Shown here in pieces: positions 148-11,700 of a stretch of DNA of 64,000 nt. The translations under genes were made by a program, and so were the position numbers. A model generated the notes under the pieces. That model was not told the DNA's origin, made no database searches, and saw only the letters and a program-made list of their open reading frames with translations. Position 1 is the stretch's first letter; every line of letters begins with the position of its first letter. This DNA comes from Actinomyces radicidentis (GTDB lineage: Bacteria > Actinomycetota > Actinomycetes > Actinomycetales > Actinomycetaceae): assembly GCF_001553565.1 (NCBI RefSeq), contig NZ_CP014228.1:1984001-2048000 (forward strand), written 5' to 3'.

Positions 148-849
148 TCAGACGGGCTCGTCGGTCGGCTCGACCTGCTCGAGGTAGCGGCGCACGACGA
201 CGTCGGCGAGCGAGTGGTGGTGCCCGATGGGCGGGGCGACGATCTCGGCGCCGGCCCCGTGCAGCGCGCGCGAGAAGTGCCCCTCGGCCAGGAGGTAGGT
301 GGCCAGGGCGACCACCTCGGCGCCCTCGTCATGGAGCTCGCGGACGGCCGCGCGGACGCTCGGGTCCGCGGCGGAGAGGAAGGCCGCGCGCGTCGGCACT
401 CCGGTCATCGCCTCGACGGCGCGGGCCGCCTCCCTCGCCTCGGCGACGCCGGAGGTGCGGCGGGTCCCCGCGGCGGCCAGCACGACGGCGTCGACCTCCT
501 GCCAGTCGGCGCCCTCCGTGACGAGCTGCTCGGTGAGTCGCTCCACGACGCCGGAGAGCAGGTCCGGCTCCGGCCCGAGGTGGCGGGTGACCGTCCCGGA
601 GCCGTGCGCCGTGACGAGGCTCGGGAGGTCGTGCTCGACGTGGTAGCCGCCCCCGAGGAAGAAGGGGACGACGACGGGGTCGACGGCCCCGTCGAGCGCG
701 TCCGGGGCGCTCGGGGAGGAGAACTCGACGTAGCCGTGGCGGACCTCGACGCCCGGGAGGAGGCGGGCGACGTCGTCGGCGACGAGGGGCAGGAGGGGCT
801 CGGCCCCCGGTGCCCTCGTGCCGTGCGCGATGAGGACGAGACGGTTCAT
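148..849 (-). CDS. Sirohydrochlorin ferrochelatase-like protein (CbiX family)
   Basis: A 233-residue protein with two tandem CbiX-type halves. The first starts at LIAHGTR (His near residue 9) and contains GGGYHVEHDLP with candidate metal-binding histidines. The second ends with LLAEGHFSRAL. The family inserts Fe2+ into sirohydrochlorin to make siroheme, the cofactor of the sulfite reductase at the head of this gene set. It is the last gene of the minus-strand sulfate cluster and starts 12 bases after the permease gene. Iron rather than cobalt or nickel is inferred from this context, because no cobalamin genes are visible nearby. It acts in the cytoplasm. Confidence 0.85.
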   Translation of the reverse strand: MNRLVLIAHGTRAPGAEPLLPLVADDVARLLPGVEVRHGYVEFSSPSAPDALDGAVDPVVVPFFLGGGYHVEHDLPSLVTAHGSGTVTRHLGPEPDLLSGVVERLTEQLVTEGADWQEVDAVVLAAAGTRRTSGVAEAREAARAVEAMTGVPTRAAFLSAADPSVRAAVRELHDEGAEVVALATYLLAEGHFSRALHGAGAEIVAPPIGHHHSLADVVVRRYLEQVEPTDEPV

Positions 850-861
850 GCGCGCACCCTC

Positions 862-1866
862 TCACGCGACCGTTTCAGGCAGGGGTGCCCTCCGTCCCGG
901 TGAGACGCGTTCGACGTCGGGGTGCTCCGCGGCGCGCGGTTGCGGGCTCGGGGCCGGGTGGGCGGCGCGGCTCGCCCCGGCCCGGTGGGCCGCGTCGAGC
1001 AGGAGGCGCTCATGGCGCCACCTGCGTACCGACACGGCCACGAGGAGGAGCCAGACGGGCACCACCGCGGCGAGGACGGCGAGGGTCGCCGTGCTCCCGA
1101 TCCCGAGGGCGCTGAGCACCTTCGCCAGGTTCGTCAGGATGATGAGGCCCCCCACCGCGGAGCCGAGGACCTGTCCGGGGAGTCGCGAGACGAGCCAGGC
1201 GGCGAGCGGCGCGGCCGCCATCCCGCCCACGAGGAGCGCCGCGACGACGGTGACCGGGATCCCCGAGTGCCCGAGCCCCAGCAGGAAGCCGAGCGACGCG
1301 GCCACGGAGACGATGAACTGTGAGGTGTCGACGCTGCCGACGACGGTCCTGGGCGCCGTCTTGCCGGCCGTGAGGAGCGTCGTCGTGGCCACCGGTCCCC
1401 AGCCGCCGCCGCCCGTGGCGTCGACAAGGCCGGCGATGAGGCCCAGGGGCGCGGTGAAGCGCGCGCCGTGCCCGCTGCGCCGGGCGGTGGTCCCCGCCGG
1501 CGGCCTCAGCGTGAAGCGCAGGAGCACGTAGACGCCGAGCGCCAGGAGGATGGACGAGGTGATCGGGGTGGCCGCGCTGGTGGACAGGTGGCTCAGGGCT
1601 GTCGCGCCGATGAAGGCGCCGACGGCCCCGGGGCCGCCCAGCCGGGCGACGAGGCGCCAGTCCGTGTTGCCGAGGCGGTGGTGGGCGGAGCCGACGACGA
1701 GGGAGGTCCCGATCTCGGCCAGGTGCACGGACGCGGAGGTCAGCGCGGGCGACAGCCCCGTCAGGAGGAGGAAGGAGGACGAGAGGACCCCGTATCCCAT
1801 GCCGAGGGAGCCGTCGACGAGCTGGGCGACGAATCCGACGAGGACGAGGAGGAGAAGGTGGCGCAC
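862..1866 (-). CDS. TauE/SafE-family sulfite/anion permease
   Basis: A 334-residue polytopic membrane protein with about eight hydrophobic segments and glycine-rich motifs typical of TauE/SafE (QLVDGSLGMGYGV near the N-terminus, LIAGLVDATGGGGWGP mid-protein, the inverted repeat of the fold). It begins with GTG. A GGAG ribosome site lies a few bases upstream. The last 50 or so residues are an Arg/Pro-rich cytoplasmic tail. Members move sulfite, sulfonates or related anions. Inside a sulfate-reduction operon it may import a sulfur source or export excess sulfite, and the sequence does not settle which. No ABC sulfate importer lies in the window. Confidence 0.85.
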   Translation of the reverse strand: MRHLLLLVLVGFVAQLVDGSLGMGYGVLSSSFLLLTGLSPALTSASVHLAEIGTSLVVGSAHHRLGNTDWRLVARLGGPGAVGAFIGATALSHLSTSAATPITSSILLALGVYVLLRFTLRPPAGTTARRSGHGARFTAPLGLIAGLVDATGGGGWGPVATTTLLTAGKTAPRTVVGSVDTSQFIVSVAASLGFLLGLGHSGIPVTVVAALLVGGMAAAPLAAWLVSRLPGQVLGSAVGGLIILTNLAKVLSALGIGSTATLAVLAAVVPVWLLLVAVSVRRWRHERLLLDAAHRAGASRAAHPAPSPQPRAAEHPDVERVSPGRRAPLPETVA

Positions 1867-1908: not shown

Positions 1909-2799
1909 TCAGGGGTGTGGAACGGTGCGCGAGCCCCAGGCGGGGCTCACGGTGACGACGTCGCCGATGACGATGACCGCTGGCGCGGTGACACCGACCT
2001 GCTGGGCGACGTCGGGCAGACATCGCAGGAGGGTCGTCGTCACCCGCTGGTCGTCGCGGTAACCGCGCTCGATGACGGCCGCCGGGGTCTCGGGGTCGGC
2101 GCCTCCGGCGAGCAGGATGCTCACCGAGCGCTCGAGGTGGCTCACGCCCATGAGGAGGACGAGCGTGTGGTCGCGCCGGGCGGGGACGGTCTCGACGAGG
2201 TCCTCGTGCGCGGTGACGACGGAGAAGCCGCGCGCCAGGCCGCGGTGGGTGACGGGGATGCCCGCGGCCGCGGGGACGGAGATCGCCGAGGTCACGCCCG
2301 GGACCACCTCCACGGTGACGCCGGCGGCACGGCAGGCCGCGGCCTCCTCACCGCCGCGGCCCAGGACGTAGGGGTCGCCGCCCTTGAGGCGCACGACCCG
2401 CTGACCGGCACGGGCGCGCTCGACGAGGAGGGCGTCGATGTCGTCCTGGGGCACGAGGTGCAGACCGGAACGCTTGCCGACGTCGACGACCTCCGCCCCC
2501 GGCGCGAGCTCGGCGAGGACGCCGCGCGGGGCGAGGCGGTCGACGACGACGACGTCGGCCCTCGCGAGGAGCTGCGCGGCGCGCAGGGTGAGGAGCCCGG
2601 GCTCGCCGGGGCCGCCGCCGACGAGCGCGACCCAGCCGGTGCCGGGGACGTCCGCGTCCGGCACGGTGCCGACGCCGGACGCCCAGGCGACCGGCCCGCC
2701 GGCCGGCGCGACGGGCGCCGCCGGCTCGCCGGACGCGAGGGCGCGGTCGCCGTCGGCGCGGTCGGTGGGGTCGGTGCACGGGGTGCGCGGCTCGCTCAT
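1909..2799 (-). CDS. cobA: Uroporphyrinogen-III C-methyltransferase
   Basis: 296 residues. The SUMT domain starts near residue 55 (WVALVGGGPGEPGLLTLRA) after a low-complexity Ala/Pro/Asp extension. Signature segments seen are VVVVDRLAP, VRLKGGDPYVLGRGGEE and VEVVPGVTSAISVPAAAGIP. It transfers two methyl groups from SAM to uroporphyrinogen III, giving precorrin-2. It has no fused precorrin-2 dehydrogenase/ferrochelatase (CysG N-terminal) domain. The chelatase is the separate CbiX-like gene downstream, and the NAD-dependent oxidation step has no gene in this cluster. The ribosome site GGAGGAG sits just before the ATG. Confidence 0.93.
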   Translation of the reverse strand: MSEPRTPCTDPTDRADGDRALASGEPAAPVAPAGGPVAWASGVGTVPDADVPGTGWVALVGGGPGEPGLLTLRAAQLLARADVVVVDRLAPRGVLAELAPGAEVVDVGKRSGLHLVPQDDIDALLVERARAGQRVVRLKGGDPYVLGRGGEEAAACRAAGVTVEVVPGVTSAISVPAAAGIPVTHRGLARGFSVVTAHEDLVETVPARRDHTLVLLMGVSHLERSVSILLAGGADPETPAAVIERGYRDDQRVTTTLLRCLPDVAQQVGVTAPAVIVIGDVVTVSPAWGSRTVPHP

Positions 2800-2829: not shown

Positions 2830-4251
2830 TCAGACAGCCTGCCCCGTGCGTGCGTCGTCCGCGTGACGTTCGGGGGCGCCGGTGCGGACCATCCCGGCGG
2901 CGAGCGTCCAGCCGTCGGCGGGGTCGACGAGGAGGAAGGCGCCGTCGGCGCGCGAGGTCGAGTAGTCGGCGACGGGGAGCGGCTCGGCCAGGCGGAGCCG
3001 GACGCGACCGATGTCGTTGAGGCTGAGCCCCTCGGCGGGGCGGGTGCTGAGGTCGTCCAGGTCGAGGACGCCGTCGACGGCGGTCACGAGCGCCTGGACG
3101 GTCCGGGTGCCGTGCTTGACGAGGACCCGGTCGCGCTCGTGCAGGCTCCGCTCCGAGAGCCAGGCCACGTCGGCGCGCACCTCCCTCACGAGCTCGGGGG
3201 CCGAGTCGGCCGTGGCGAGGAGGTCGCCGCGGGCGACGTCGACGTCGTCGGCGAGCTCGACGGCCACGGAGCGGCCCGTTCCCGCCCGCTCGAGGCGTCG
3301 CGAACCGAGCGTGATGCCCGTGACGCGCGTCCTGCGGCCCGAGGGCAGGACGACGACCTCGTCGCCGACTGAGACCGACCCGGCGGCAACCTGGCCGGCG
3401 TAGCCGCGGTAGTCGGTCAGACCGTCGGCGGCGGCGCCCTGGGGGCGCAGGACGAGCTGGACGGGCAGGCGCAGGGGGTGCTCGGTCTCGGCGGAGTCGG
3501 CGGGGATCGTCTCGAGGAGCTCGAGGAGGGCCGGCCCGTCGTAGAAGGGGGTCCGCTCCGAGCGCGTGACGACGTTGTCGCCCTCGAGGGCGGAGGTGGG
3601 CAGGGTGCGGACCTCGGACACGCCGAGCTCGTGGGCCACCCGGCTCAGCTCGTCGGCGATGCCGCGGTAGACGTCGGCGGAGAAGTCGACGAGGTCGATC
3701 TTGTTGACGGCCACGACGACGTGCGGGACGCCGAGGAGGGCCGCCACGGCCAGGTGGCGGCGCGTCTGCTCCAGGACGCCGTGGCGGGCGTCGACGAGGA
3801 GGACGACGACGTCGGCGGTGGACGACCCGGTCACGGTGTTGCGCGTGTACTCCACGTGCCCGGGGCAGTCGGCGAGGATGAAGGAGCGGCGGGAGGTGGC
3901 GAAGTAGCGGTAGGCGACGTCGATGGTGATGCCCTGCTCGCGCTCGGCGCGCAGGCCGTCGGTGAGGAGGGCGAGGTCGGTGCGGGTCAGACCGCGGTCG
4001 AGGCTGACCCGCTCGACGGCGGCGAGCTGGTCGCGCAGGACGGACTTCGAGTCGAACAGGAGCCGTCCGACGAGGGTGGACTTGCCGTCGTCGACGCTCC
4101 CGGCGGTGGCGAGCCTGAGGAGGCCACCGGGGGCGGGTGCGGTGGCGTCGAGGAGGCGGCGGGCCTCCTCGTGCTCCCGGGCGGAGGGGGCCGTGCCGGT
4201 GGCGGGGGCGGTGGCGCTGCGCTCGAGGGGAGTGGTCAGGGTGCTGGTCAT
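2830..4251 (-). CDS. cysN: Sulfate adenylyltransferase subunit 1 (GTPase)
   Basis: 473 residues, an EF-Tu-like GTPase. The P-loop is in GSVDDGKSTLVGRLLFDSK (about residues 52-70), switch II is DCPGHVEY, and the guanine-specificity motif is NKID. Domains II and III follow. It couples GTP hydrolysis to APS synthesis from ATP and sulfate with CysD. There is no C-terminal APS-kinase domain, and none is expected because the pathway here reduces APS directly. It lies 126 bases after cysD, and that gap carries a small tandem repeat. Confidence 0.96.
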   Translation of the reverse strand: MTSTLTTPLERSATAPATGTAPSAREHEEARRLLDATAPAPGGLLRLATAGSVDDGKSTLVGRLLFDSKSVLRDQLAAVERVSLDRGLTRTDLALLTDGLRAEREQGITIDVAYRYFATSRRSFILADCPGHVEYTRNTVTGSSTADVVVLLVDARHGVLEQTRRHLAVAALLGVPHVVVAVNKIDLVDFSADVYRGIADELSRVAHELGVSEVRTLPTSALEGDNVVTRSERTPFYDGPALLELLETIPADSAETEHPLRLPVQLVLRPQGAAADGLTDYRGYAGQVAAGSVSVGDEVVVLPSGRRTRVTGITLGSRRLERAGTGRSVAVELADDVDVARGDLLATADSAPELVREVRADVAWLSERSLHERDRVLVKHGTRTVQALVTAVDGVLDLDDLSTRPAEGLSLNDIGRVRLRLAEPLPVADYSTSRADGAFLLVDPADGWTLAAGMVRTGAPERHADDARTGQAV

Positions 4252-4377: not shown

Positions 4378-5319
4378 TCAGAAGTAGCCCTCCTTCTTGC
4401 GGTCCTCCATGGCGGCCTCGGAGAGGCGGTCGTCGGCGCGGGTGGCGCCCCGCTCGGTGAGCGTGGAGGCCGCGACCTCGACGACGATCTCGTGGTTGGT
4501 GGAGGCGGGCGACTCGACCGCGCCGGTGCAGGACATGTCCCCGACGGTGCGGTAGCGGACCGTGCGGGTCTCGACCACCTCGCCGTCACGGGGCTCGGTC
4601 ACGGGGGTCACCGCGAGCCACATGCCGTCGCGCCGGAAGACCTCGCGCTCGTGCGCGTAGTACAGGCTCGGCAGCTCGATGTCCTCGCGCTCGATGTAGC
4701 GCCACACGTCGAGCTCGGTCCAGTTCGACAGCGGGAAGACGCGCACGTGCTCGCCGGGGGCGTGACGGGGGTTGAAGAGGTTCCACAGCTCGGGGCGCTG
4801 GTTGCGCGGGTCCCACTGCCCGAACTCGTCGCGCAGGGACACGATGCGCTCCTTGGCGCGCGCCTTCTCCTCGTCGCGGCGCCCGCCGCCGAAGACGCCG
4901 TCGAAGCCGCCGGCCTCGATCGCGTCGAGGAGGGGCCGGGTCTGGAGCGGGTTGCGGGTGCCGTCGGGGCGCTCGCGGAGGCGGCCGTCGTCGATGTAGT
5001 CCTGGACGCTGGCGACCACGAGGCGGGTGCCCGTCGCCTCGACCGTGGCGTCGCGGTACGCGAGGACCTCGGGGAAGTTGTGGCCCGTGTCGACGTGGAG
5101 GAGCGGGAAGGGCACCGGGGCGGGCCAGAAGGCCTTGCGCGCGAGGTGGAGCATGACGACGGAGTCCTTGCCGCCGCTGAACAGGAGGACGGGGCGGCGG
5201 CACTCGGCGGCGATCTCGCGGATGACGAGGATCGCCTCGGCCTCGAGGGCGTCGAGCTGGTCGAGGGCGCCGGGAGCGGCGCCGGGAGTGGTGGGGGAGG
5301 GGCTGGTCGTGGTGGTCAT
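4378..5319 (-). CDS. cysD: Sulfate adenylyltransferase subunit 2
   Basis: 313 residues. The ATP-pyrophosphatase loop SGGKDSVVML lies near residue 48. Other CysD hallmarks are HVDTGHNFPE, GGGRRDEEKARAKERI, FPLSNWTELDVWRYI and the C-terminal DRKKEGYF. It makes APS from sulfate and ATP with CysN. The open frame extends well upstream, but the chosen ATG at 5317-5319 has a GGAGAAG ribosome site, fits the family length and leaves a 38-base gap from cysH. The first 15 residues are Thr/Ser/Pro-rich and likely disordered. Confidence 0.96.
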   Translation of the reverse strand: MTTTTSPSPTTPGAAPGALDQLDALEAEAILVIREIAAECRRPVLLFSGGKDSVVMLHLARKAFWPAPVPFPLLHVDTGHNFPEVLAYRDATVEATGTRLVVASVQDYIDDGRLRERPDGTRNPLQTRPLLDAIEAGGFDGVFGGGRRDEEKARAKERIVSLRDEFGQWDPRNQRPELWNLFNPRHAPGEHVRVFPLSNWTELDVWRYIEREDIELPSLYYAHEREVFRRDGMWLAVTPVTEPRDGEVVETRTVRYRTVGDMSCTGAVESPASTNHEIVVEVAASTLTERGATRADDRLSEAAMEDRKKEGYF

Positions 5320-5357
5320 GTCTTCTCCGGATCGGGGTCTCGGGAGGCGGTCAGGGC

Positions 5358-6200
5358 TCAGAGGTGGATGCCGCACTCGGTCTTGGCGAAGCCTGCCCAG
5401 CGGCCCGCGCGCGGGTCCTCGCCGGGTGCGACGCGCCGCGTGCACGGCTCGCAGCCGATCGAGGGGTAGCCGTCGGCGAGCAGGGGGTTGACGACGACGC
5501 CGTGCTCGGTCGCGTACCCGAGGAGCTCGTCGAAGGTCCAGGCGGCCAGGGGGTTGATCTTGACGATCCGGTGGGTCTCGTCGAAGGTCACCAGCGGCGT
5601 CCCGGTGCGCGTCGGCGCGTCCTCGCGGCGCACGCCCGTGACCCAGGCCTCGTAGCCCGTCAGGGCGCGGGCCAGGGGCGCCACCTTGCGCAGGTAGCAG
5701 CACCGGCCCGGGTCGCGCCGGTAGAGCTCGGGGCCCTCCTGGGCGTCCTGCTCGGCCACGGTGAGCTCGGGCAGCACGTCGATGACCGTCACGTCCATCG
5801 ACTCCGCGACGGCGTCCCTCGTGCCCGAGGTCTCGGCGAAGTGGAAGCCGGTCTCGAGGAAGAGGACGTCGACGCCGGGGACCTGCTCGGCGACGACGTG
5901 GGGGAGGACGGCGTCGGCCATCGAGCAGGCCACGGCGAGGGACCCGGGGAAGGTCCTCGCCGCCCACGCGACGACGTCGCTCGCGCTCGCGTCCTCCCCG
6001 AGCTCCGCGGCGCCCGCCGCGGCGACGGCGCGCAGCTCGTCCTCGCTGCGGCGCGGGGCGTCGGCCGGGCGCACGGCGTTGGCCCCGCGGGCGGTGAGCC
6101 GGCCGAACCGGTTGCGCGGCCCGTCTGCGCGGGGGCTCCTGCCGGGCACCGCCGAGGCGGTCGCTGCGGTCGTGGTGGTCGTTGCCGCTGCGTCGCTCAT
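5358..6200 (-). CDS. cysH: Assimilatory APS reductase
   Basis: 280 residues. After a Thr/Ala-rich leader of about 40 residues comes the PAPS/APS-reductase fold (SLAVACSMADAVLPH; FLETGFHFAET). The paired cysteines in GRCCYLRKV and the CxxC in GCEPCTRRV form the [4Fe-4S] site that marks APS-type rather than PAPS-type enzymes. The catalytic cysteine is in the C-terminal ECGIHL. It reduces APS to sulfite with thioredoxin. The ATG (6198-6200) overlaps the sulfite reductase stop codon (ATGA), implying coupled translation. APS-type chemistry agrees with the absence of cysC. Confidence 0.95.
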   Translation of the reverse strand: MSDAAATTTTTAATASAVPGRSPRADGPRNRFGRLTARGANAVRPADAPRRSEDELRAVAAAGAAELGEDASASDVVAWAARTFPGSLAVACSMADAVLPHVVAEQVPGVDVLFLETGFHFAETSGTRDAVAESMDVTVIDVLPELTVAEQDAQEGPELYRRDPGRCCYLRKVAPLARALTGYEAWVTGVRREDAPTRTGTPLVTFDETHRIVKINPLAAWTFDELLGYATEHGVVVNPLLADGYPSIGCEPCTRRVAPGEDPRAGRWAGFAKTECGIHL

Positions 6201-7924
6201 GCGAGCGCCTCCTCGTCGGCCCGCTGCGCCCACTGGGCGAAGCTCTCCTCGGGCTCGCGCTCGTCGAGGTAGACGCGCACGATCCTCTCGATGTAGTCGG
6301 TCAGGTCGGTCGCCGCGACCTTGAGGTGCCGCACGGTGCGGCCGAGCTCGGCCTCCTCGTGGCCCTCCTTCGACAGGCCCCCTCCGAGGTGGACCTGGAA
6401 GCCGGGGACGCGTTCGCCGTCGACCGTGATGATCTGGCCCTTGAGACCGATGTCCGCGGTCTGGATCCGGACGCAGGAGTTCGGGCAGCCGTTGATGTGG
6501 ACGGTGATCGGGCGGTCGAGGTCGGTGTCGGCGAGGCGCTCGTCGAGGTCGGCCGCCACGCGGGCAGCCAGACCCTTGGTCTCCACGATGGCGAACTTGC
6601 AGAACTCGATGCCGGTGCAGGCGAGCATGTTGCGCGTGAAGGGCGCGGGATCGGGGTCCAGGCCGAGGTCGATGAGTCCCTGCCGCGCTTCCTCGACGCG
6701 CTCCGGGGGGACGTCGAGCAGGAGGATGTTCTGCAGCGGGGTGGTGCGCACCCGGTTTGAGCCGACGCTCTCGGCGAGGTCCGCCAGGCCGAGCATGACG
6801 TCGCCGGACAGGCGGCCCACGGGGGGCTTGGCGCCGATCCACGACAGGCCGTCGGACTGCTCGTGGACGCCCAGGTGGTCGGCGGTGCCGCGCGGCGGCT
6901 CGGGCGCCGGTCCGTCGGCGAGGCGGTAGCCGAGGTACTCGTCCTCGAGCACGCGGCGGAACCTCTCGGGTCCCCACTCAGCCATGAGGAACTTGAGGCG
7001 GGCCTTGTTGCGCAGCCGGCGGTAGCCGTAGTCGCGGAAGATCCGGATGACGCCCCACCAGGCGTCGGCGACCTGGTCGGGGCGGACGAAGGCGCCCAGG
7101 CGGCGACCGAGAAAGGGGGCCGTGGACAGGGCGCCGGCGATCCAGAGGTCGTAGCCGGGGCCGAGGTCGGGGTGGACGACGCCGACGTACGAGATGTCGT
7201 TGATCTCGTGGAGGACGTCGAGGGTCGGCGACCCCGTGAAGGCGGTCTTGAACTTGCGCGGCAGGTTCGAGATCTCGGGGTTGCCGAGGTACGTGTCGTG
7301 CAGGTGGCGCGCCGCCTCGGAGGGGTCGATGACCTCCTCGGGGTCGATGCCGGCCACGGGTGAGACGAGGAAGCCTCGGGGCGTGTCGCCGCAGGCCTCG
7401 ATCGTCGTGAGGCCGACGGCGTCGAGGCGGCGCCACATCTCGGGCACGTCCTCGATCCGGATCCAGTGCAGCTGGAGGTTCTGCCTGTCCGTGATGTCGA
7501 GGGTGCCGCGGGCGAAGTCCTTCGAGATGCCGCCGACGGTCCGCATCTGCTCCACGGACAGCGAGGTGCCGTCCATGCGGATGCGCTGCATGAAGTAGCG
7601 GTCCGAGAGCTCGGAGGGCGTGAGCTGGGAGGTCTTGCCCCCGTCGATGCCCTGCTTGCGCTGCGTGTAGAGGGCCCACCAGCGGAAGCGGTTGTGGAGG
7701 TCGTCGTCGGGGATCGAGTCGTAGCCCTCGTGGGCGTAGGCGTCGATGACCCGCTGCCTGGCGCCGAGCGGGTCGCCGTCCTGCTTGAAGACCTCGTTGG
7801 GGTTGAGGGGCTCCTTGCCGTCGACGGCCCACTGGCCGTTGGAGCGTCCCGCGCGCGGCGGGCGCACGTCACGGCCCTTGGCAGGCGCGGGTGCCCGGTC
7901 GCTGGTGGTGGTCTCGGTGCTCAT
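6197..7924 (-). CDS. sir: Ferredoxin-type sulfite reductase (siroheme, 4Fe-4S)
   Basis: 575 residues with the duplicated nitrite/sulfite reductase fold. The siroheme/[4Fe-4S] ligands are in ACTGIEFCKFA and NGCPNSCVR near the C-terminus. The segments RWWALYTQRKQG and EACGDTPRG match the active-site tyrosine and cysteine regions of actinobacterial SirA/NirA proteins. It reduces sulfite to sulfide with six electrons from ferredoxin. Nitrite reductase is the alternative, but the cys neighbours favour sulfite. It is the first large gene of the operon, with a strong GGAGGAG ribosome site at about 7927-7933, and lies downstream of the cysteine-rich leader peptide. Confidence 0.93.
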   Translation of the reverse strand: MSTETTTSDRAPAPAKGRDVRPPRAGRSNGQWAVDGKEPLNPNEVFKQDGDPLGARQRVIDAYAHEGYDSIPDDDLHNRFRWWALYTQRKQGIDGGKTSQLTPSELSDRYFMQRIRMDGTSLSVEQMRTVGGISKDFARGTLDITDRQNLQLHWIRIEDVPEMWRRLDAVGLTTIEACGDTPRGFLVSPVAGIDPEEVIDPSEAARHLHDTYLGNPEISNLPRKFKTAFTGSPTLDVLHEINDISYVGVVHPDLGPGYDLWIAGALSTAPFLGRRLGAFVRPDQVADAWWGVIRIFRDYGYRRLRNKARLKFLMAEWGPERFRRVLEDEYLGYRLADGPAPEPPRGTADHLGVHEQSDGLSWIGAKPPVGRLSGDVMLGLADLAESVGSNRVRTTPLQNILLLDVPPERVEEARQGLIDLGLDPDPAPFTRNMLACTGIEFCKFAIVETKGLAARVAADLDERLADTDLDRPITVHINGCPNSCVRIQTADIGLKGQIITVDGERVPGFQVHLGGGLSKEGHEEAELGRTVRHLKVAATDLTDYIERIVRVYLDEREPEESFAQWAQRADEEALA

Positions 7925-8098
7925 GTCTCCTCCAGGGTGGCGGCGACGGAGCGTTCCGGGGGTGACCGGTTCCTGGGGCCCTCCCGGGGTGCGCGTCAGG
8001 GACGTTCACCGTGGAGTGCAGTCGTGCTGCTCGGCTCCGGACGCTTCGTCGCGCCGGAATCCGATGATGCGGCTCGTGCCGCTGCGGTCAGGCGCTCG
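7925..8098 (-). promoter_or_regulatory. Leader between Cys leader peptide and sir
   Basis: This 174-base untranslated stretch separates the leader-peptide stop from the sir start. It carries the sir ribosome site next to the ATG. If the upstream peptide is an attenuator, the structure that hides or frees this ribosome site should lie here or in the peptide-coding hairpin. I could not deduce a unique fold by eye. Confidence 0.5.
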
Positions 8099-8188
8099 TC
8101 AGGCCTGACAACACATGACCCAGCCGTGGGCGCGCAGCACGTCCGAGGGGCGGGTGCCCTCGGTCGTGGTGCTGCGTGCGGCGGTCAT
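8099..8188 (-). CDS. 29-residue leader peptide with tandem Cys codons
   Basis: The ATG is at 8186-8188 and the TGA at 8099-8101. The peptide ends HGWVMCCQA, with the two Cys codons (TGT TGT, 8108-8113) four codons before the stop. A TACGGT box lies seven bases upstream of the ATG, so the transcript probably starts at the ATG itself (leaderless). A nested perfect hairpin (8133-8176) lies inside the coding sequence. Cysteine-rich leaderless ORFs ahead of sulfur-assimilation operons act as cysteine-responsive attenuators in mycobacteria. This has the same layout ahead of sir-cysH-cysD-cysN. A five-residue product starting at the internal ATG (8114-8116) is also possible. Confidence 0.65.
   Translation of the reverse strand: MTAARSTTTEGTRPSDVLRAHGWVMCCQA
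8133..8176. promoter_or_regulatory. Nested hairpin inside the leader-peptide gene
   Basis: The outer arms CGCAGCAC (8133-8140) and GTGCTGCG (8169-8176) enclose an inner stem CCGAGGG (8143-8149) / CCCTCGG (8157-8163). All are perfect complements. In the minus-strand transcript it lies upstream of the Cys codons, so a ribosome translating the leader must open it. Confidence 0.55.
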
Positions 8189-8195
8189 GGCGCAG

Positions 8196-8201
8196 ACCGT
8201 A
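8196..8201 (-). promoter_or_regulatory. -10 box of the sulfate-assimilation operon
   Basis: Read on the minus strand this is TACGGT (TANNNT), seven bases before the leader-peptide ATG. No convincing -35 is visible. The spacing predicts a leaderless transcript. Confidence 0.5.
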
Positions 8202-8376
8202 CCCCGACCGGACGACGACCGCGCACCGCGTCGCCGCATCCTGAGACGAGAGCCGTACCCGACCGGGGCCGACGGGACCCGCGGCCGGGCCGCGTCCCGC
8301 CCCTGTCCGCCCGGGTGTGGCCATCACGACGTCGTCCGCGCCCCGGGCGGCCTGGCCACCCGAGATGTACCGTCGA

Positions 8377-8382
8377 TACACT
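8377..8382 (+). promoter_or_regulatory. -10 box of ileS
   Basis: TACACT fits TANNNT and would start transcription near 8389, immediately before the T-box leader. The -35 region is not consensus. Confidence 0.45.
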
Positions 8383-8388
8383 CGCCGC

Positions 8389-8640
8389 CAACAGGCGATG
8401 ACCCGGCCGGGACCGCAGCGCGGCCCCGGGCATCACCGGAGAGCCTCCCGGAAGAACGGGCCCGGCGCCGTCCACGCGACGAGCCGGCGCCTCACTAGAC
8501 CCGGGCGGGAGGGGCCCGCACAGCCCCCTGCGAGCGGTCGCGCACCGCGAGCCGGCCCGGGCCCGCCCGGGACGGGGACCGAGCGCGGCAAGCGAGGTGG
8601 TACCGCGGTGCCGCCCGGCTCCCCAGGTCATGAGCCTGCG
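8389..8640 (+). promoter_or_regulatory. T-box riboswitch, isoleucine-specific
   Basis: The T-box bulge core TGGTACCGCG is at 8598-8607. UGGU can pair with the ACCA end of tRNA-Ile (discriminator A). About 165 bases upstream the segment GGGCATCACCGGAGAGCC holds an ATC (8432-8434) in the specifier position, followed by GGAAGAACGGG and CTCACTAGACC, landmarks I associate with actinobacterial ileS leaders with a shortened stem I. There is no T tract after the antiterminator region, so control is likely translational. Uncharged tRNA-Ile would stabilise the form that exposes the ileS ribosome site. A CTCGTG/CACGAG hairpin (8662-8684) follows. Confidence 0.85.
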
Positions 8641-8704
8641 GGAGGAGGGCCCGGCGTCGTCCTCGTGACGAAGAGGTTCACGAGAGATCCGCGAGGCACC
8701 AGCC

Positions 8705-11700
8705 ATGGCAGACGCCACCCAGACCACGCCGACGGGGGAGTCCTTCCACCCCGCCGGCTACCCCCTCCACCGCGCGGGCGAGGGCGTCAGCCCCTCCCCG
8801 TCCTTCCCCGCCATCGAGCAGGACGTGCTCGCCTACTGGAAGCAGGACGGCACCTTCCAGGCCTCGATCGACAACCGCCCCGCCCTGGACGACGACGGCC
8901 ACTCCAACGAGTTCGTCTTCTACGACGGCCCTCCCTTCGCCAACGGCCTGCCCCACTACGGCCACCTCCTCACCGGCTACGTCAAGGACGCCGTCGGCCG
9001 CTTCCAGACCCAGAACGGCAAGCGCGTCGAGCGCCGCTTCGGCTGGGACACCCACGGCCTGCCCGCCGAGCTCGAGGCCCAGCGCCTCCTCGGCATCGAC
9101 GACGTCACCGAGATCACCCGCCCCGGCGGCATCGGCATCGAGAAGTTCAACGAGGAGTGCCGCACCTCCGTCCTGCGCTACACCAAGGAGTGGGAGGACT
9201 ACGTCACCCGCCAGGCGCGCTGGGTCGACTTCGACAACGACTACAAGACGCTCAACCCCGACTACATGGAGAGCGTCATCTGGGCCTTCAAGACCCTCTA
9301 CGACAAGGGCCTGGCCTACCAGGGCTACCGCGTCCTGCCCTACTGCTGGCACGACCGCACCCCACTGAGCAACCACGAGCTCAAGATGGACGACGACGTC
9401 TACCAGGACCGCCAGGACAACACCGTCACGGTGGGTCTGCGCCTGGAGGAGCCGCTGCGCGAGGGCGCCGAGCGGCCCGAGCTGCTCCTCATCTGGACGA
9501 CGACGCCGTGGACCCTCCCGTCCAACTCCGCCGTCGCCGTCGGCCCCGACGTCGAGTACGTCCTCGTCCACGTGGCGGACGACCTCGACTCGCCGGTCGC
9601 CGGCGAGGACGTCGTCGTCGGCGCCGAGCGCCTTGAGGCCTACGCCAAGGAGCTCGGCGAGGAGCCCGAGGTCCTCGCCAGCTACAAGGGCTCTGAGCTG
9701 GTGGGCGCGGCCTACCACCCCATCTACGACTACTTCGACGACGCCGAGCACCGCGCCGAGGGCGCCCAGCCCGGGCCCAAGGCCTGGCACGTCATCGCCG
9801 CCGACTACGTCACCACCTCCGACGGAACCGGACTCGTCCACCAGGCCCCCGCCTTCGGTGAGGACGACATGTGGACCTGTATGGAGTACGGCATCGGCGT
9901 CGTCCTGCCCGTCGACGAGGGCGGCGTCTTCACCGCCGAGGTCCCCGACTACGAGGGCCTGCAGATCTTCGACGCGAACAAGCCCGTCGTCACCGACCTG
10001 CGCGACGCCACCGGCCCGATCGCCCGCCGCGACCCCGCCGTCCGCGCCGTCCTCGTGCGTCAGCAGTCCTACGTGCACAGCTACCCGCACTGCTGGCGCT
10101 GCCGCAAGCCGCTCATGTACAAGGCCGTGTCCTCCTGGTTCATCAAGGTCACCGCCATCCGCGACCGCATGGTCGAGCTCAACCAGCAGATCGAGTGGAC
10201 TCCCTCCCACATCAAGGACGGCATCTTCGGCAACTGGCTGGCCGGCGCCCGCGACTGGTCCATCTCCCGCAACCGCTTCTGGGGCGCCCCCATCCCGGTG
10301 TGGCGCTCCGACGACCCGCGCTACCCCCGCGAGGACGTCTACGGCTCCTTCGAGGAGCTCGAGCGCGACTTCGGCGTCAAGGTCGACAACCTCCACCGCC
10401 CCTACATCGACGAGCTGGTCCGTCCCAACCCGGACGACCCGACCGGCAAGTCGATGATGCGCCGCATCCCCGACGTCATGGACTGCTGGTTCGAGTCCGG
10501 CTCGATGCCCTACGCCCAGGTGCACTACCCCTTCGAGAACGTCGAGTGGTTCGAGTCGCACAACCCGGGCGACTTCATCGTCGAGTACATCGGCCAGACC
10601 CGCGGCTGGTTCTACACGCTGCACGTCCTGGCCACCGCGCTCTTCGACCGCCCCGCCTTCACCTCCGTCGTCTCCCACGGCATCCTGCTCGGCGACGACG
10701 GCCAGAAGATGAGCAAGTCGCTGCGCAACTACCCCGACGTCAACATGGTCTTCGACCGCGACGGCGCCGACGCCATGCGCTGGTTCCTGCTCTCCAGCCC
10801 CGTCGTGCGCGGCGGCAACCTCGCCGTCACCGACCAGGCGATCCGCGACACCGTGCGCCAGGTCCTCCTGCCGCTGTGGAACACCTGGTACTTCTTCTCG
10901 CTCTACGCCGGCCAGGCCGACGGCGGGAAGGGCTACGTCACGCAGGGCGTGGACCTGTCCGACGCGTCCCTGTTCGGTCCCAAGGGCTCGCTGCACGTCA
11001 TGGACCGCTACGTCCTGGCGCGCACCAAGGACCTCGCTGCGACGGTCCGCGCCCAGATGGGCGCCTACGACGTCACCGGCGCGACCCAGACGATCCGCGA
11101 CTTCCTCGACGTCCTCACCAACTGGTACCTGCGCACCTCGCGCTCGCGCTTCACCAGTCAGGACGCCGCCGTCTCGCACCCGGCCTTCGACACGCTCCAC
11201 ACCGTGCTGCGCGTCCTCATGGAGGTCCAGGCCCCACTCGCCCCGCTCGTCTCCGAGGAGATCTGGCGCGGCCTGACCGGCGGGCGCTCCGTCCACCTCA
11301 CCGACTACCCGGAGCTGCCCGCCCACGTCGCGAGCCCGGCTCTCGTGACCGCCATGGACGAGGCTCGCGCCGCCGTCTCCGCGACCCTGTCCCTGCGCAA
11401 GGCGGAGAAGCTGCGCGTGCGCCAGCCGCTGCGCGCCCTCACCGTCGCCACGACCGACCCGGCCGGGCTCGCGCCCTTCCGCTCGCTCATCGCCGAGGAG
11501 GTCAACGTCAAGGAGGTCCGCGTCCTCGACGCCGCCGACGCCGGCTACGAGGTCCACGAGGAGCTCACGCTCAACCCGCGCGCCTTCTCCCCGGAGGTCC
11601 GCAAGCTCACCTCGCGCCTGTTCAAGGCGCAGAAGGCGGGGGAGTGGACCCTCACCGAGGACGGCGACGTCCGCTTCGACGACGTCCTCATCGACGGGAC

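Follow-up and report, generated by a model that had tools for sequence, protein, structure and literature searches.

Near-invariant, mutually exclusive RNA segments follow a leaderless-type cysteine leader ORF upstream of sir in Actinomyces: a candidate translational attenuator

Introduction

Cysteine-leader attenuation is already known from mycobacteria, where it was tested after a first prediction in 2005, and the form that we describe here from Actinomyces is a variant in another lineage. Canestrari et al. reportedly described polycysteine leaderless short-ORF attenuators of mycobacteria in 2020. Several papers describe, in mycobacteria, a leaderless small ORF with contiguous Cys codons that stands first in a cysteine-metabolism transcript, and propose ribosome speed as the sensor in these polycysteine leaders (PMC4633059, Shell et al. 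2015; PMC9031893; PMC13236596). Seliverstov et al. (2005) had predicted that cys operons of Mycobacterium and P. acnes, as well as cbs of B. longum, are preceded by short ORFs containing Cys runs; they reported that the alignable mycobacterial regions lack conserved terminator hairpins, and called other attenuator elements missing (PMC1262725). A. naeslundii appears in the genome list of that study, and not in those of its passages on cysteine that were available (PMC1262725).

The Actinomyces leader shares with the mycobacterial polycysteine attenuators a leaderless-type start, contiguous Cys codons near the end of the ORF, and the position of first ORF in a cysteine/sulfur operon; it differs in having two Cys codons, in keeping UGU, and in a conserved, multi-segment putative RNA switch, the mycobacterial structures of 2020 lying outside this comparison. 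A Cys-run short ORF is common to it and the cys and cbs leaders predicted in 2005, whereas conserved pairing segments distinguish it from those leaders as given in the available text (PMC1262725). With trp-type transcription attenuators it would have in common regulatory leader codons and exclusive RNA helices chosen by ribosome position, but it has no intrinsic terminator after the putative switch, and its last segment precedes a ribosome-binding site (RBS). The LEU element upstream of leuA in Actinobacteria likewise combines a leader ORF with RNA pairing that involves the Shine-Dalgarno box, although the amino acid and the architecture are different (PMC1262725). Our sequence comparisons indicate that what is new is the set of near-invariant, mutually exclusive RNA segments between leader and sir; a literature search on cysteine leader peptides with actinobacteria, Actinomyces and sulfur, covering mostly open papers, returned no report of this element.

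A leaderless-type cysteine ORF precedes the sulfate-assimilation operon

The window is a stretch of 64,000 nucleotides from Actinomyces radicidentis (contig NZ_CP014228.1, positions 1,984,001 to 2,048,000), and its features are collected in Table 1. A sequence-only reading had placed a 29-codon ORF ending VMCCQA-stop 174 bases before sir, with a TACGGT box seven bases 5′ of its ATG, and both were verified on the minus strand: the tail reads VMCCQA-TGA, and 174 bases separate the leader stop from the sir ATG (7924). The box spacing is nearly fixed across 38 Actinomyces loci, as TANNNT-7 nt-ATG in 35 and as TANNNT-6 nt-GTG in the other three (L021, L022, and L043), in which the residue before MCC is S, not V. 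A TTG at -35 spacing is present in 17 of 26 aligned rows and absent from the window sequence itself in the same promoter spacing check, and a sigma-70 consensus scan of 7900-8710 returned no promoters. The spacing of the box suggests leaderless initiation, with the start assigned by sequence only. Leader ORFs are 28, 29, or 33 codons long in the 26 aligned rows, and the codon-position entropies (0.79, 0.87, and 0.89) indicate little amino-acid constraint except at the start and tail of the leader.

The same reading had given the order of the downstream genes as sir-cysH-cysD-cysN-siroheme-permease, which Pfam and NCBIfam profile matches bear out, although for the sir product no NCBIfam model scored above cut-off. 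Every gene from sir through the CbiX gene is encoded on the minus strand; a single ATGA overlap occurs (cysH ATG/sir stop), and the gaps do not exceed 126 nt. We note that the leader and the divergent ileS share the intergenic region 7925-8704; T-boxes before ileS have been reported for some Actinobacteria (PMC1262725), and 7900-8710 has neither a T-box nor any other Rfam match.

Table 1. Positions in the window of the leader, the putative RNA segments, and the neighboring genes
Feature	Position	Strand	Basis or remark
-10-like promoter box, TACGGT	8196..8201	minus	7 nt 5′ of leader ATG
Leader ORF, leaderless-type, 29 codons, MTAARSTTTEGTRPSDVLRAHGWVMCCQA	8188-8099	minus	ATG 8188, stop 8101-8099
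Hairpin within leader ORF, inner stem CCGAGGG/CCCTCGG	8143..8163	minus	Covariation, 24 rows
Adjacent Cys codons UGU UGU, proposed stall site	8113-8108	minus	Codon conservation in 26 aligned rows
E0, UCAGGC (last base of second Cys codon, Gln, Ala)	8103..8108	minus	Can pair with E1
E1, GCGCCUGA	8088..8095	minus	12 nt 3′ of second Cys codon; invariant in 26/26
E2a, UCCGGCGC	8051..8058	minus	Can pair with E1 or E2b; one row with a change
E2b, GCGUCCGGA, invariant core GCGUCCGG	8036..8044	minus	Can pair with E2a or E3
E3 plus flank, CCGGAACGCUCC; commonest genus form CCGGACGCUC	7948..7959	minus	Starts 35 nt before sir ATG
sir RBS, GGAGGAG	7927..7933	minus	Sequence
sir, nitrite/sulfite reductase family	6197..7924	minus	Pfam PF01077, PF03460; sulfite reductase by context
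cysH, (P)APS reductase	5358..6200	minus	NF002537 above cut-off; start checked
cysD, sulfate adenylyltransferase small subunit	4378..5319	minus	TIGR02039 above cut-off (run on 4378-5331; ATG 5319)
cysN, sulfate adenylyltransferase large subunit	2830..4251	minus	TIGR02034 above cut-off
Uroporphyrinogen-III C-methyltransferase (siroheme synthesis)	1909..2799	minus	TIGR01469 above cut-off
TauE/SafE-family permease	862..1866	minus	PF01925
CbiX-family chelatase, probably sirohydrochlorin ferrochelatase	148..849	minus	PF01903
ileS, divergent from leader	from 8705	plus	TIGR00392 above cut-off

In Actinomyces the leader is conserved wherever sir is present

A search for the Sir protein in 59 genomes was positive in 22 of 37 genomes of the genus, and these together with 16 further sequence records supplied the 38 Actinomyces sir loci. 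An ORF ending MCC(Q/R)A, with one extra residue in some, precedes sir in all 38, which upholds the earlier contention that the TGT pair is unlikely by chance; the end of the leader ORF lies 174-268 nt from the Sir coding match. Six further genomes agree, with sir following and the leader present. An RNA model of the region was built from 26 aligned rows, taking E below 1e-12 as a strong match. Among 49 genomes of the genus, sir is present in 28, and the same 28 carry a strong match, one each, that adjoins sir in every case; there is none in the 21 searched genomes without sir. Alignment of the region upstream of sir in relatives, which the sequence-only reading had proposed as a check, thus finds the ORF and its Cys codons conserved wherever sir is present, and with this conservation across the genus the objection that they might not be conserved among relatives falls away.

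Cys-rich leaderless-type ORFs also precede sir outside the genus, in Oerskovia (L044, L045, L048, L049, and L069), Sanguibacter (L053), and two further loci from the same order (L023 and L025). Their tails read CCCC in the five Oerskovia loci, CCCCC in Sanguibacter, ARCRCR in L025, and also CSCQCSCR. E1 (GCGCCTGA) is retained in seven of these eight leaders, the exception being L023. By eye, a GGGCGCG-type partner is seen downstream in the Oerskovia and Sanguibacter leaders. The same scan found no such leader before sir in the Kocuria, Arthrobacter, Brevibacterium, Cryobacterium, or Phycicoccus loci, one of which, L050, has just 307 nt upstream.

As for a second copy in one genome, the sole other model match in G000 at E up to 1 is partial (E = 0.49), in a search whose strict filters can miss weak copies, and a scan of the 600 nt upstream of L191, the best of its four cysK-like matches, showed no leaderless Cys ORF. 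Eight of the weaker RNA-model matches were judged to be chance; seven lack adjacent Cys codons, and L154 has TGTTGT with no in-frame stop after it. Rfam 15 gave no matches at gathering score in the window and none at E up to 5 in 7900-8710, so that no known RNA family or riboswitch is recognized there.

The best match below the strong set (E = 2.5e-5) is in G062, a genome without sir, where E2a, E2b, E3, and an ORF with the tail MCCRP (L135:1501-1661, contig C14) lie before an ABC transporter ATPase gene, the ORF ending 143 nt before the ATPase start. The transporter is of the polar-amino-acid type; its highest scores come from NCBIfam models for ectoine, glutamine, and cystine transporters, and none is above cut-off, so that we assign no substrate. 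No TANNNT box at leaderless spacing was found at this locus. Relatives of the transporter in 29 other genomes lack the segments, and a scan for leaderless Cys ORFs before ABC-transporter relatives, in 30 of the 42 genomes with one, found none except an ORF far upstream in L190. A pattern search for the three segments that allowed a spacer of 30-60 nt matched G062 alone, the spacers of the sir copies being too long for it at 61-90 nt. The G062 copy may be recruited or stranded, and a possible second target.

Cys codon choice

The CC pair is kept in all 26 aligned rows, and the Cys run consists of two codons only. All 26 rows have UGU as the second codon and 22 have it as the first, in a window with 74.5% G+C, where Cys in eight neighboring genes is encoded by UGC 21 times and by UGU three times (24 total). 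UGC and UGU are as a rule decoded by one tRNA, and UGU may therefore be retained in the leader for slower decoding.

Mutually exclusive RNA segments between the leader and sir

In an alignment from the leader end to sir, segments E0, E1, E2a, E2b, and E3 are near-invariant amid otherwise variable sequence, E0 having the form UC(A/G)GGC in the genus and E3 mostly that of CCGGACGC. By their sequences the segments could pair in mutually exclusive ways. E0:E1 pairs in 150/150 cells over 25 distinct rows, with one A-U/G-U change and no covariation; E1:E2a pairs in 175/175 cells and never varies; E2a:E2b pairs in 99% of 200 cells; and E2b:E3 in 86.5% of 275 cells, row L019 being misaligned there. 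Slid versions reach at most 40, 39, 55, and 43% (42.9%), respectively, although beating slides is expected for any structure read off the same sequences. Because E1, E2a, and E2b hardly vary, covariation is possible at E2b:E3 alone, where three pairs have changed on both sides (matched by 174/500 shuffles) and the score is matched by 24/500, counts that related rows inflate; we regard this as modest support.

In 25 of 26 rows no downstream sequence pairs with E2b more strongly than E3, which had been chosen for that complementarity. The distance from the start of E3 to the sir ATG is 32-38 nt for most rows; the A. oris group has 48 nt, L020 has 42 nt, and L019 has 77 nt. Pairing of E3 to the RBS is distinct from that of the spacer in 16 of 26 rows, the window sequence not among these. 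For a separate hairpin lying between E1 and E2a, p against shuffles is 0.1 or less in just five of 26 rows, and we do not claim it. These downstream segments were absent from the sequence-only reading, and they carry most of the mechanistic information.

A hairpin within the leader ORF

The nested hairpin that had been reported inside the ORF stands in its inner stem, and the outer stem, although present in the window (8 bp), has no covariation support in the register tried, where a slide of 2 scores higher. The inner stem is the best case of covariation in the region: the 80.6% of cells paired and the covariation score of 0.458 are each reached by none of 500 shuffles and by no slide (24 rows), changes on both sides occur in five of its six pairs (matched by 17/500 shuffles and one slide), and the number of pair types is matched by 197/500 shuffles. 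In the comparison with shuffles, p is 0.1 or less for the inner stem in 17 of 26 rows and for the outer in 12 of 26. A hairpin with other sequence is found at the same place in Oerskovia. We note that in most rows, Oerskovia included, about 23-32 nt lie between the end of the hairpin and the Cys codons. In trp leaders a pause hairpin slows RNA polymerase until the first ribosome arrives, and by analogy we suppose that the ORF hairpin may do the same.

Ribosome position and predicted folding

In alignment A2 the Cys codons occupy columns 4-9, the stop codon usually columns 16-18, and E1 columns 22-29 in every row. If a ribosome occludes 26 nt centered on the codon, an estimate used in PMC13236596, its footprint at a Cys codon would reach column 18 or 21 and leave E1 free, and at the usual stop it would reach about column 30 and hide E1. 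The stop lies one codon later in L007, L008, L010, and L061, so the distance of E1 is fixed to the Cys codons and not to the stop, which fits the need of a stall-sensing device.

Equilibrium folding is less favorable. When the RNA is truncated where the ribosome would end (E1:E2a is zero at the stop by construction, E1 being cut away), the value for E1:E2a with the ribosome at a Cys codon exceeds 0.5 in only six of 26 rows and is about zero for the window sequence, and the mean accessibility of the RBS does not differ between a ribosome at the Cys codons (0.26) and one at the stop (0.25). The off state is lower in energy at equilibrium in 20 of 26 rows, and by 5.9 kcal/mol for the window sequence. 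The whole strand exchange is seen in the lowest-energy folds of L012 and L021. The piece from E1 to E2a alone, which is longer and transcribed first, is more stable than the E2a:E2b hairpin in all 26 rows, so that folding during transcription could still favor E1:E2a.

Forcing E1:E2a gives E2b a mean probability of 0.70 of pairing with the region before sir, the value of 0.00 in the forced off state being by construction. The RBS is more open by >0.05 with E1:E2a forced than with E2a:E2b forced in 11 of 26 rows, and less open by >0.05 in none; in the window sequence its accessibility is 0.42 in both. Folding thereby speaks weakly for an opening of the sir RBS as the last step, with the window's own sequence excepted. 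Support is good for the segments and considerably weaker for the direction of the output. A terminator scan found no U-tract intrinsic terminator after the E2a:E2b hairpin, and the sole terminator-like site, a 5-pair stem, sits within the leader ORF, where the Cys codons make up its T-rich tail.

Discussion

We read the element before sir as a ribosome-sensed, cysteine-responsive attenuator, more likely with a translational output, and put the probability of this at roughly two in three. That the two-cysteine leader would let the ribosome sense a shortage of cysteine we consider very probable. What is observed is a conserved ORF with conserved Cys codons and box, followed by conserved segments of exclusive complementarity; from it we infer where transcription would start, where ribosomes would stall, in what order the RNA would fold, and a response to cysteine that would act on translation rather than on transcription. 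Control of translation is favored since a conserved segment lies just 5′ of the RBS.

Judging from the box spacing, transcription would start at the leader AUG, and ribosomes would load there directly. When charged tRNA-Cys is scarce, a ribosome would stall at UGU UGU and cover E0 and not E1, which, left uncovered, would pair with E2a; this would free E2b, and E2b:E3 would keep E3 and its flank off the sir RBS, with the operon on. When cysteine is plentiful, the ribosome would reach the stop and cover E1, the E2a:E2b hairpin would form, and E3 and its flank, thus free, would mask the RBS, with the operon off. Once the ribosome has departed, E0:E1 would hold E1 sequestered. In this full form the proposal is of a relay, in which a ribosome on two UGU codons would gate the sir RBS, about 165-205 nt away, through two successive strand exchanges (E1:E2a, and then E2b:E3 over 61-90 nt), as a translational cysteine attenuator on a leaderless mRNA, in all 28 sir-bearing genomes of the 49 in the genus and, before a polar-amino-acid-type ABC transporter, in one without sir. 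We offer it tentatively, at a little under even odds.

The main rival keeps the same cysteine-sensing leader and gives it a transcriptional output: Rho, or a structured pause, would end transcription before sir, and a stalled ribosome or E1:E2a would prevent this. Rho was proposed in 2005 for cys leaders of other actinobacteria (PMC1262725). The stretch from leader to sir is of similar length throughout, with a spacer that varies in sequence, and opening of the RBS is not predicted in the window sequence, both of which suit such an output. No U-tract terminator follows the E2a:E2b hairpin, however, even if Rho is beyond the reach of that scan, and Rho has no need of a conserved E3 near the RBS; we consider Rho-dependent termination, and a transcriptional output at large, unlikely.

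It is much less probable that E2a, E2b, and E3 are DNA operators of a cysteine-responsive repressor, to which the leader ORF would add little. The stretch TCCGGCGC..GCGTCCGGA does read as an inverted repeat plus a third half-site, E3 being a half copy, but the sites lie >100 nt inside the transcribed region, and E1 complements just one arm, at a fixed distance from the Cys codons. In L018, moreover, the base beside the E2b core and its partner in E3 have both changed, giving U-A, and the E2a pair is lost. Less plausible again is that the small protein is itself functional, for instance as a thiol- or metal-binding peptide placed before sir for co-expression: the MCC tail is indeed retained in 26 of 26 rows, but most of the remaining peptide varies, the tails differ in Oerskovia (CCCC) and L025 (ARCRCR), and UGU choice and RNA complementarity are conserved, not only amino acids. 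A chance ORF without function, of a kind common at 74.5% G+C, is the least credible reading of all and is already refuted by conservation, its counterpart standing in all 38 Actinomyces sir loci.

A cysteine-responsive attenuator thus remains the reading that we prefer. The sequence-only reading, which presented the leader as an extension of the mycobacterial device to Actinomyces, was right as to the extension, given conservation across the genus, but the 2005 study had already predicted leaders of this kind for Mycobacterium, P. acnes, and B. longum (PMC1262725). Cysteine sensing by leaderless leader peptides is, our comparison indicates, not a mycobacterial peculiarity: it would be genus-wide in Actinomyces, with kin in Oerskovia and Sanguibacter. 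The conserved RNA segments are of the kind reported missing for the cys leaders examined in 2005, and they yield a model, testable step by step, of how a leader peptide may act without an intrinsic terminator in high-G+C bacteria.
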